From positions 1-40,904 of the forward strand of contig JAUNGJ010000027.1 of NCBI GenBank assembly GCA_030524585.1: a stretch of 40,904 nucleotides of DNA. The letters run 5' to 3'. This document shows, piece by piece, positions 763-3,181 of the stretch. The notes beneath the pieces were generated by a model, which saw nothing but the letters and a program-made list of their open reading frames with translations, did no database searches and was not told the DNA's origin. Position 1 is the first letter of the stretch. Each line of letters opens with the position of its first letter. The translations under genes were made by a program, and so were the position numbers. Source of the stretch: Eubacteriales bacterium. GTDB taxonomy: Bacteria; Bacillota; Clostridia; Lachnospirales; Lachnospiraceae.

Positions 763-1581
763 TTATATCTCCGCATATTTCATCATTAATCTTTCCAGTT
801 CGTCTACAGAAATCGGCGTCGGAACTGTGAACATGGTATTGTCCTCAATGGCATCTGCCAGCCTTCGGTACTCCTGCGCCTGCGCGCAATCCGGATCAAA
901 TTCAATGACCGTTTTTCGCTTGCACTCTGCCCGCTGCACCATATTATCCCTGGGAAGAAAATAAAGAAGCCTCGTATTGAGTTTTCCTGCAAACTCTTCT
1001 ACAAGCGCGCGCTCATTGTCCACCAGACGTGAGTTGCAGATCAATCCCCCCAGCTTCGTCTTTCCCGCTGCAGCATAACGCTGGATTCCCTTACAGATAT
1101 TGTTTGCCGCATAAAGCGACATCATTTCTCCGGAACAGACAATATAAATTTCCTGTGCCTTACCTTCCCGGATTGGCATAGCAAAGCCACCGCACACCAC
1201 GTCTCCCAAAACATCATAGAGCACATAATCCAGGTCGCTGGTATAAGCTCCCAGATTTTCCAGCATATTGATGGACGCAACGATTCCTCTGCCGGCACAT
1301 CCAACTCCCGGTTCCGGCCCGCCGGACTCTACCGCTTTGATTCCTCTGTATCCCTCAAACAGAAACTGCTCCAGCTCCATATCATCTTCATCCGTATGAC
1401 GCATCGTATCCAGCACCGTTGTCTTAGCAAGCTCTCCAAGGATCAGACGGGTAGAATCCGCCTTCGGATCACACCCAATCAGCATCAGTTTTTTTCCAAG
1501 CTCCGCTAATGCAGCCGCAAGATTCTGTGTCGTTGTCGATTTCCCAATACCACCTTTTCCGTAAATTGCAATCTGTCTCAT
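763..1581 (-). CDS. NifH-like ATPase (nitrogenase reductase family, iron protein)
   Basis: A 272-residue homologue of the dimeric ATP-dependent Fe protein that delivers low-potential electrons to a component-1 partner. All family landmarks are present: P-loop [10 protein letters not shown] (7-16), switch motif GCDPKADST (36-44), the two cluster-ligating cysteines C95 (in GVGCAGRGI) and C130 (in [15 protein letters not shown]), and the arginine after C95 that corresponds to the ADP-ribosylation site of classical NifH. It is therefore probably functional. The start is the ATG at 1581, which overlaps the stop of the upstream component-1-like gene (ATGA); an upstream in-frame ATG lies inside that gene. 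No nifB, nifE or nifN is nearby and the partners are divergent. Nitrogen fixation is therefore unlikely, and the protein belongs with the nitrogenase-like group that includes enzymes such as CfbC. The substrate of the complex is unknown. Confidence 0.9.
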
Positions 1582-2708
1582 CAAATCTCTCCCTTCTCTT
1601 CCAGCCATCTATTCAGCCCTCTTCCAAACAGGGATGGTAATTTCTCTGTTTCTCCATACAGCGACAGTACCTTGTGTGGAAGATCCACCCACTTAACCTG
1701 TCCTGGAGCCATTGTCCTAAGAAGCGGATCTGCAATGATCATCCGGAACCTGTCATTTCCAAGAAGTTTCTTTGCATCTTCTTCATCCCGTATTCTTACA
1801 TCCCCTGGAGCTGCCAGTTTTTTGGAAAGCTTATAAAAGGTAGCAACCTGTACGCCTTCTATTCCATATTCTCTGTTCAGAGTCTCACGTACGGCATTTG
1901 CCATAAGCTGTTCTCCTACAATCAGTACATCCGCTTCTCCATCGTAAGAAACGCGAGGCTCCATCTGTTTCCCTTCCCAAATGCATTCCATCAGCTGCCC
2001 GCACCATCTTTCACCAAAAGGAGCCGCCGCCAGATAGGGCGTTCCGTATTGACGGTATAAATATTCCGCAGCCTTCAGACCGGACACCGTTAATACTACA
2101 TTCACCGATGCCGCCGGCATCTTCTCTATATTCTCTACTACTTCTTTTCCACCCAGGTTGGCAATTACGCGGATACCCCGCTCTTCAAACCATCCCCGAA
2201 TCTGCTCCGGCATTTTTTCCTGCCAATCAAAGGTATTGGCTCCCAGCAAATTCACACTGTTTTCCACAGGCTCCTGCTCTCTGCACAAAAGCTCTGTCAT
2301 ACCACACAGGGTTTCCGCGATTCCTTCATCATAGGTCTTATGCCCGGACAGCTTCAGCGCTTTTACCGGAATACCGCTCTCTTTTGCAATCTGCCCGGCC
2401 GCTTCCTCCAGATCGGTTCCTATCATTGCCGAACATGGACCCGCACTTAAGAATGCAAACCGAACATCATAGCGCATCCTGGCCTTTTCAAAGGCATCCA
2501 GCACCTTCTGCCGTGTACCTGTCACCACATCATCTGAGTTGATTTCCGTATGGCAGACTCTGGTATCCGGACCTCCCCGCCGCTCTCGGCCAAGACGGTA
2601 TGCTCCACAATCATCAATGATTCCGATACCCTCGGTCTGTCTGATCATTTCTATAAATCCAAAATTATCCGCCATAAGAGGCGGCAGTATATTCCACAGT
2701 TTCCGCAT
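1581..2708 (-). CDS. Nitrogenase component-1-like protein (NifD/NifK fold), divergent
   Basis: A 375-residue protein of the nitrogenase component-1 superfamily, which holds metal clusters and receives electrons from the NifH-like partner. The N-terminus ([10 protein letters not shown], then [13 protein letters not shown]) corresponds to the start of the component-1 domain. Three cysteines, C34 (DDCGAY), C52 ([15 protein letters not shown]) and C92 ([12 protein letters not shown]), sit where component-1 subunits carry their P-cluster ligands. Rossmann-like segments follow, such as LLGANTFDW and DVLIVGEQL. It is shorter than NifD or NifK (about 450-520), and I could not assign an active-site cofactor ligand with confidence. 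It starts 8 nt after the stop of the small upstream gene and overlaps the nifH-like start by 4 nt, so the three are probably translated in concert. I place it among the uncharacterised group IV/VI nitrogenase-like proteins. The family is fairly sure; the function is not known. Confidence 0.8.
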
Positions 2709-2716
2709 AATCTCTC

Positions 2717-3181
2717 CTATTCTTTCAAATCATTTCCATATCCTGTCAGATGGCACCCTTTATGAAACTGAACATCTATCTGATAACGTTCTGATAATTC
2801 CTTCGTCAGGGCCTGATAATCCGTTGATAGTAGTTCAATCTGACAGCCACCGAATATTATCAGATGCTTCGGTTTTTTTGTCTCAATAATTTCTTCCGCC
2901 GCTTCCGTAATCATGTCCAGATACCCGCCGCTGATCCAGTCAATTTCATCCAGACACAGAAAGCTTAATTTTCCTTCTCTTTGCAGCTGAAGTTTTTCTG
3001 TTCCTTTATGACGACTGCAGGAACGAGAACCAACAAATAACAGATAGGTACCTTCCGGCTCTGCCAAAGCTAAATAGCCTTCTCCATGACGCTTTCCATT
3101 ATGCCCGCCACGATTACCTTTTCGATGCTGCTCCCGACTCATCCGGCCAGACTCTTCTTTTCGCTTTCTTCCGCGATTCAT
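2717..3181 (-). CDS. Small single-domain component-1-like protein with a basic N-terminal tail
   Basis: A 154-residue protein, first gene of the operon. Residues 45-150 resemble only the first domain of a nitrogenase component-1 subunit: LLFVGSRSCSRHK (C55, matching the HG..GC region), SGGYLDMITEAAEEI, then KPKHLIIFGGCQIELLSTDY (C113, matching the third P-cluster-type cysteine). C76 and C143 (KGCHLTGYG) are extra. Residues 1-36 form a strongly basic Arg/Lys/Gly/His-rich tail not expected in this family. The start at 3181 is supported by AGGAGG 7 nt upstream. It may be the second half of a split, asymmetric component-1 complex with the 375-residue protein, or an assembly factor. The homology is inferred by eye from motif spacing and should be treated as probable, not certain. 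Confidence 0.65.
   Translation of the reverse strand: MNRGRKRKEESGRMSREQHRKGNRGGHNGKRHGEGYLALAEPEGTYLLFVGSRSCSRHKGTEKLQLQREGKLSFLCLDEIDWISGGYLDMITEAAEEIIETKKPKHLIIFGGCQIELLSTDYQALTKELSERYQIDVQFHKGCHLTGYGNDLKE

Follow-up and report, generated by a model that had tools for sequence, protein, structure and literature searches.

The 40,904-nucleotide contig JAUNGJ010000027.1 of a Lachnospiraceae bacterium (assembly GCA_030524585.1), hereafter the window, carries a three-gene nitrogenase-like operon in which one of the two component 1 subunits is cut down to a single domain. In its anatomy and ancestry, the operon can be assigned with high confidence to a real, conserved and apparently new variant of the nitrogenase superfamily, and no title or abstract start among the literature matches listed names the reduced form. 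As to function, a reduced nitrogenase-like reductase is the best explanation overall, held with a little more than even confidence. The initial annotation of this sequence had placed a three-gene nitrogenase-type operon here, and open reading frames together with PF00142, TIGR01287 and PF00148 matches confirm it. The genes are tightly packed on the minus strand in the order small, large, NifH-like:

2717..3181, minus strand, small subunit gene, open reading frame of 154 amino acids
1581..2708, minus strand, large subunit gene, open reading frame of 375 amino acids
763..1608, minus strand, NifH-like Fe protein gene, open reading frame with Pfam and NCBIfam matches, placement in the NifH tree and motifs

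A ribosome site, AAGGAGGA, precedes the small gene, and eight bases separate the small-gene stop from the large-gene start. The true nifH start is probably the ATG at 1581, giving 272 amino acids; its first base doubles as the final A of the large-gene TGA, so that the two genes overlap. The window is a whole contig from a 2.8 Mb genome (115 contigs, 91.76% complete), in which the small and large genes are the sole PF00148 matches.

Profile comparison identifies the small protein as domain I of a D-type (NifD/NifE-like) component 1 subunit. Against the D subunit of full-length relatives, hhalign gives 99.0% (E 7.5e-17) over D columns 1-141, and in the same comparison the values are 1.3% for the relative K, 6.5% for NifD, 0.3% for NifE, 0.1% for NifK, 1.3% for NifN and 15.7% for the large family. 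A second, plain local run gives 43.7% for NifE and 98.5% for the relative D, and the match to PF00148 reaches 22.6 bits, under the curated 28.6. This bears out the earlier proposal of an asymmetric component 1 with the small protein as its first domain. Residues C55, R57, H58, C113, D121 and H144 are invariant in all 18 small proteins, and C55, R57, C113 and D121 remain so in 28 sequences, 17 of them full-length D proteins. In a profile alignment to the PDB, both conserved cysteine columns land on NifE cysteines. According to the available text of Dos Santos et al. 2012 (PMC3464626), the cysteine pair kept in a cysteine-poor clade of relatives corresponds to alpha C88 and C154. Further common cysteine columns lie at window C76 (16 of 18) and at window G111, where 11 of 18 have a cysteine. 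The small protein also has a basic Gly/His/Arg-rich N-terminal tail, and Gly/His-rich stretches recur in many members at the small-protein N-terminus and in an early loop of the large protein. The tail is strongly His/Gly/Arg-rich in one locus (L086:9261-10001), where it presumably resembles the tails of metal chaperones.

The same initial annotation had considered component 1 possibly split. For the two thirds of D that are missing, a profile built from 9 of 17 aligned D-type relatives, which scores 365 and 356 bits on positive controls, finds no separate domains II and III in 17 of the 21 operon genomes, where the large gene alone matches, at less than 30 bits (nothing in G801). The remaining four (G786, G791, G800 and G802) contain other full nitrogenase-like genes, and in 17 of 21 genomes the operon is the sole PF00148 system over cut-off. 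A split subunit was rejected on this evidence. Since the profile finds no separate protein, D appears reduced, and 'split' fits less well.

The large protein is, by profile and tree, a K-type component 1 subunit. It matches PF00148 with 87.9 bits over residues 44-243, and in a tree of 80 component 1 sequences, which used 14 of the 21 large proteins, the large proteins form one clade (100/100). This clade is sister (100/99) to the K subunits of Lachnospiraceae NifH-D-K relatives, sits beside rather than within the K subunits of these full-length relatives (loci L064-L082), and lies apart from NifD, NifK, NifE and NifN. The three cysteines that the initial annotation had put at P-cluster positions, C34, C52 and C92, are kept in four of 21, fewer than two and five of 21 large proteins, respectively. 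A three-cysteine P-cluster site was ruled out by this lack of conservation; no cysteine is common to all large proteins, and the invariant cysteines are C55 and C113 of the small protein. A lineage-specific cysteine stands at window E132 in 11 of 21. Y37 is invariant in all 21 large proteins and falls, in the hhalign alignment, on the conserved single K-side cysteine of the relative K proteins, such that it may perhaps act as a cluster ligand.

The NifH-like protein matches PF00142 with 409 bits and TIGR01287 with 436.8 bits against a cut-off of 394.35. Its ATPase motifs are conserved as first described, GCAGRG and DVVCGG being present in all 21 members and the P-loop in 20; the exception is G208/L094 (one and the same contig), in which the NifH frame is interrupted there, and the frame of L100 is also interrupted. 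In a tree of 73 NifH sequences, to which no CfbC, BchL, VnfH or AnfH reference was added by name, the operon-family proteins form one clade (99/98). This clade groups with classical NifH (100/100, branch 2.29), and the NifH of the NifH-D-K relatives falls outside the group. Eleven positions, including an insertion, are fixedly unlike classical NifH under a criterion of at least 90% in each group. Because the Fe protein and component 1 have different nearest kin, the operon is a mosaic on the evidence of the trees, or else another component 1 has acquired a NifH of the classical type. The tree check suggested earlier thus places the proteins outside the clades of known function included in the trees; dark-operative protochlorophyllide oxidoreductase (DPOR), CfbCD and methylthio-alkane reductase were tested by models and features instead.

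The operon family comprises 20 loci besides the window, 16 of them with record titles that say Lachnospiraceae (mostly metagenome-assembled genomes, MAGs). The loci come from a scan of the genome_contigs collection with an alignment of two large proteins, and the count is a lower bound, as the scan rests on two short peptide patterns. Gene order is the same wherever DNA covers it. The small protein is short again in all 17 loci with upstream DNA covered (139-172 amino acids, with a 247-amino-acid open frame in L086), and its reduced form is therefore a family trait; an annotation or assembly error in the small gene was ruled out on the same count. The contigs of L084, L085 and L099 begin too late to show the small gene, and in the L084 genome a 160-residue open frame on another contig, matching PF00148 positions 15-110, may be the small gene of that locus. 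Purifying selection on all three genes is indicated by ratios of nonsynonymous to synonymous substitution (dN/dS) of 0.03-0.26 across 10 sequence pairs (eight of these for the small gene), with dS saturated for pairs as distant as window-L083.

The family looks rare. A large-protein match occurs in one of 11 genomes of the genus, and a family-wide search of 397 genomes gave 114 with some match, among which only G000 and G208 stand out by score; the runners-up, placed in the tree, group with the full-length relatives. When 391 genomes of the class were searched for NifH, G000 and G208 again came first, the next full-length NifH being 72% identical and a fragment in G610 reaching 76% identity across 173 residues. 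The operon is missing behind thiN in all eight congeners inspected (L159-L166), where this spot (window 3383) is variable, six of them having a gene that is presumably YchF-like after thiN, directly or past two small genes. The operon is therefore probably an insertion behind thiN. No viral carriage of the operon was found in IMG/VR, and plasmid records gave only remote relatives, on five records. A defence role was rejected, PADLOC giving only weak matches for NifH (20.4 and 18.7 bits) and none for the other two proteins.

The initial annotation had noted a lack of nif assembly genes nearby, and NifB (TIGR01290) is over cut-off in none of the 21 operon genomes. Weak partial matches of 22-31 bits occur in 14 of them, 12 to the C-terminal part of the model alone, which we take to be NifX-like. 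Seven of 14 control genomes match, two over cut-off, and two methanogens are among the seven. Since NifB is not over cut-off and the D domains are missing, the evidence speaks against an iron-molybdenum (FeMoco)-type cofactor, and nitrogen fixation by the operon enzyme is very probably excluded.

For the neighbourhood of the operon, importers of the metal-chelate type are found in 11 of the 20 loci. A FecCD-type importer with a catecholate-siderophore-like binding protein lies upstream in seven loci, all of lineage B. The best solved relatives of the L092 binding protein are siderophore proteins, e.g., YclQ and enterochelin-uptake proteins, and among the NCBIfam models a catecholamine one fits it best, far under cut-off. 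An Opp/NikA-type importer lies downstream in four loci (L083-L085 of lineage A and L100 of lineage B), and in L084 and L085 its binding protein begins about 150 bases past nifH. MATE-cluster genes are present in 11 of 20 loci, with varying strand and closeness (Pfam checked for two). A MarR-type gene lies at most 1 kb downstream of nifH in 11 of 20, all of lineage B, as in the window; these genes match the MarR of the window weakly (phmmer 13.9-26.7 bits), and Pfam was run for that of L092 alone. In six lineage B loci, a long NirB-like FAD protein and an SdhA-like flavoprotein stand downstream of the operon (L092:14988-19766), and in L083 two related large proteins without a Pfam match at E 1e-8 flank it (L083:7419-9380 and 12460-14286).

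The importer association extends to the wider branch. Among the 19 loci of full-length relatives, chosen by their matches to window proteins, phmmer places a FecCD permease, a binding protein and an ATPase close to NifH-D-K in 12 (L064-L069, L073, L075, L076, L078, L079 and L082), often with overlapping gene ends, and seven have none. Ten of these loci have the trio next to NifH-D-K at a single end; in L076 and L079 it lies on both sides. On plasmid pTS1 of Treponema saccharophilum (L167), from another phylum, genes for a binding protein, a permease of the iron type and an ATPase come after those for NifH and two component 1 proteins. Searched against the PDB, one relative binding protein finds first an unnamed periplasmic binding protein, then HI_1472, presumably a molybdate-type protein, together with proteins for iron and nickel. 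Weak matches to the BtuC and IsdE models, under cut-off, come from several binding proteins and one permease of the relatives. Overall, the importers of the wider branch seem to point to metal chelates and to no single compound.

Around the operon, the window contains the following elements:

192..710, minus strand, MarR-type regulator gene directly downstream of nifH, Pfam match
734..706, minus strand, promoter-like site of marR, consensus match
3250..3279, minus strand, promoter-like site TTGACA-18-TATACT (11 of 12) upstream of the small gene, consensus match only
3333..3366, minus strand, terminator-like stem-loop between thiN and the operon, consensus match only

A scan of the whole region found eight promoter-like sites against 5.7 expected and three terminator-like sites against 2.0 expected, such that single sites are weak. 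Both the operon and marR have a TTAG(G/C)TAC-type motif ahead of them (window 3222-3233, near 743 and 105-115), a possible MarR operator that is close to chance, as eight of 100 shuffles reach three matches. Elsewhere in the window, a CobW/HypB-type GTPase lies near a 901-residue Fer4_20/Pyr_redox protein (16899-20716), and a nitrite/sulfite reductase-type gene is found at 32129-33661.

Taken together, these features suggest how a reduced nitrogenase-like reductase could work. A NifH dimer carrying MgATP and one [4Fe-4S] cluster would dock on a face formed by D-type domain I and the K-type large subunit, and would pass single electrons to one iron-sulfur cluster, for which the small protein would supply C55 and C113 as ligands. 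A non-cysteine ligand might come from the large protein, perhaps Y37; another candidate ligand, in lineage B and L086, is a cysteine that stands where the window has L11. The substrate would be reduced directly from this cluster, in a K-side pocket or in the space vacated by D, because the loss of D domains II and III and of NifB leaves neither room nor supply for a FeMoco-type cofactor. The likeliest substrate would be an imported metal complex, i.e., a metallophore, a siderophore or another chelate such as a tetrapyrrole, and the product or freed ligand might leave via the MATE exporter under MarR control. A one-cluster ATP-driven reductase is probable on this reasoning. The substrate assignment is speculative, an imported metal chelate and a tetrapyrrole together falling just short of an even chance. 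A bolder version is rather unlikely: component 1 would have ceased to be a closed pair of subunits with three domains each, D would serve for docking and cluster holding alone, the substrate would be bound by the K side or by an incoming partner, and the ATP-driven enzyme would free metal from very stable imported chelates at low potential, with re-export of the ligand. The new ATP-driven reductase envisaged in the initial annotation thus stands as the likeliest reading, with no substrate shown.

Several observations weigh against a reductase of imported chelates. The importer type differs between the lineages, and neither type occurs in the covered DNA of nine of the 20 loci (L086, L087, L088, L090, L093-L096 and L099), the covered DNA being short for L095 and L099; the L086 locus shows ATP-binding cassette (ABC) exporters. 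Matches of the binding proteins are all far under curated cut-offs. The genome of the window gave no match to the Opp-type binding protein, in a search that had no positive control, and the window contig ends 191 bp past the MarR gene, which cuts off the downstream neighbourhood. The neighbourhood counts are not independent, lineage B consisting of close relatives. Of the 18 rows with a letter at window L11, 16 have a cysteine there, the exceptions being the window and L083, and the ligand set may accordingly differ between lineages.

Among the alternatives, a reductase of imported tetrapyrroles, in which heme or a corrinoid brought in by a FecCD importer would be reduced as by DPOR, chlorophyllide oxidoreductase (COR) or CfbCD, overlaps with the reduced reductase set out above and is unlikely taken by itself. 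Those superfamily members known to work without NifB have tetrapyrroles as substrates, so that the NifB result in the 21 genomes is in its favor, as are the FecCD importers at 12 of 19 relative loci and the weak BtuC and IsdE matches. Domains II and III of D, which form part of the substrate cavity in DPOR, are missing here, and the binding proteins encoded near the reduced operon look like catecholate-siderophore or NikA-type ones, both of which speak against it. Uroporphyrinogen methyltransferase (TIGR01469) is over cut-off in 15 of the 21 operon genomes, including that of the window, and not in L086, L087, L094, L095, L096 and L099, five of which are one lineage and in which MAG incompleteness is possible. 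A self-made substrate of the sirohydrochlorin type is therefore unlikely in general, and an F430-like pathway was ruled out as a general role.

A reductive activator, which would hand electrons to another protein docked at the former site of D domains II and III, is distinctly unlikely. Archerase-type activators pass electrons to another protein in this way, and here the missing domains leave an open face beside the cluster and the retained part of D carries the cluster cysteines. The positions fixedly different from classical NifH include Av 63, 65, 102, 104, 175 and 177, some of which we take to be near the docking side. Against it, no partner enzyme recurs across lineages in the covered DNA; flavoproteins c8 and c10 occur in six loci, all of lineage B. 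A maturation factor for a metal cofactor or a hydrogenase is improbable. The His/Gly-rich tails and loops of many members and the metal-type importers nearby would suit it, and the available text of Dos Santos et al. 2012 (PMC3464626) proposes a maturation role for certain full-length relatives that neighbor ABC transporters or genes for hydrogenase maturation; against it, no metalloenzyme recurs across lineages in the covered DNA, where only about 30 neighbor proteins were annotated. A decaying remnant of a full NifHDK-like operon without present function, as the patchy occurrence (one of 11 genus genomes, and G000 and G208 among 397 family genomes), the interrupted NifH frames of L094 and L100 and the loss of the relatives' K-side cysteine from the large protein might suggest, is very improbable in the face of purifying selection on three genes, invariant residues in 18 and 21 sequences, the same reduced form in 17 of 17 loci and an intact start region and gene overlap in the window.

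The operon shows that, in the nitrogenase fold, a catalytic subunit can be cut down to one domain and still be kept by selection, and this would define the smallest unit for docking and cluster binding that serves an Fe protein. The operon also combines a classical-type NifH with a cysteine-poor component 1. Some of the clostridial nifH genes that lack nifDK and confound nitrogen-fixation surveys could be explained by the reduced family, and the link of the wider branch to importers of the metal-chelate type offers a concrete substrate class.

Of the known systems, the closest is the cysteine-poor NifHEN-like clade, listed in the available part of Dos Santos et al. 2012 (PMC3464626) for Coprococcus catus, Dorea longicatena, Desulfitobacterium hafniense and Methanocorpusculum labreanum. 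The available text notes ABC transporters nearby and holds no mention of a reduced D (PMC3464626). From their cysteine pattern and hosts, with no named sequence compared, L064-L082 appear to belong to this clade. To the K subunits of L064-L082 the large protein is sister, and the small protein matches their D; the same two D cysteines and nearby ABC importers are also shared. The operon family differs in that D consists of domain I alone, the K-side cysteine is replaced by Y37 in 21 of 21, and the gene order is small-large-nifH rather than the usual nifH-D-K; its NifH comes from the classical branch, whereas L064-L082 have their own NifH branch and a full-length D. To Mo-nitrogenase, the likeness lies in the Fe protein, which passes TIGR01287, is 67-72% identical to full-length clostridial classical NifH and has intact motifs. 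Unlike Mo-nitrogenase, the family has a separate NifH clade (99/98), NifB not over cut-off and no classical NifDKEN beside the operon, and in place of a full-length NifD with a FeMoco pocket the small protein ends after domain I.

Among the tetrapyrrole enzymes, the models for DPOR and COR are missed by the Fe protein (BchL 216 of 345.15 and BchX 205.5 of 331.2 bits), and those for the DPOR component 1 by the large (BchB 49.9 of 490.35 bits) and small (BchN 23.2 of 419.95 bits) proteins. For CfbCD, the Fe protein reaches 376.7 of 402 bits with the CfbC model, and the CfbD model TIGR03282 gives 15.6 (large) and 13.9 (small) of 268.4 bits. NflD, annotated as methanogenesis marker 13, is presumably CfbD. 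The single-subunit NflD keeps the same D cysteine pair, according to the available text (PMC3464626), and this pair is the one kept in the small protein. CfbCD has a single homodimeric component 1, in contrast to the two unequal component 1 genes here. Both BchNB and CfbD are described, in the available part of the source, as having neither a P-cluster nor an [Fe8S9C]-cluster (PMC12552129).

Methylthio-alkane reductase (MarHDK) resembles the operon in being a nitrogenase relative encoded by three genes and incapable of nitrogen fixation. The available text gives MarDK six P-cluster cysteines and, as a NifB-like protein, MarB (PMC12552129), unlike the reduced family, which has two invariant cysteines in the small protein and none in all large proteins. 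A NifB-like maturase gave no TIGR01290 match over cut-off in the 21 genomes, the fit of MarB itself to that model not having been checked. The pseudo-nifH genes of clostridia, described in the available text as nifH without nifDK (PMC8597730), are similar in that the Fe protein is a nifH by the curated model and no nifDK pass curated models, and in the operon described here the divergent partners of the NifH are identified.

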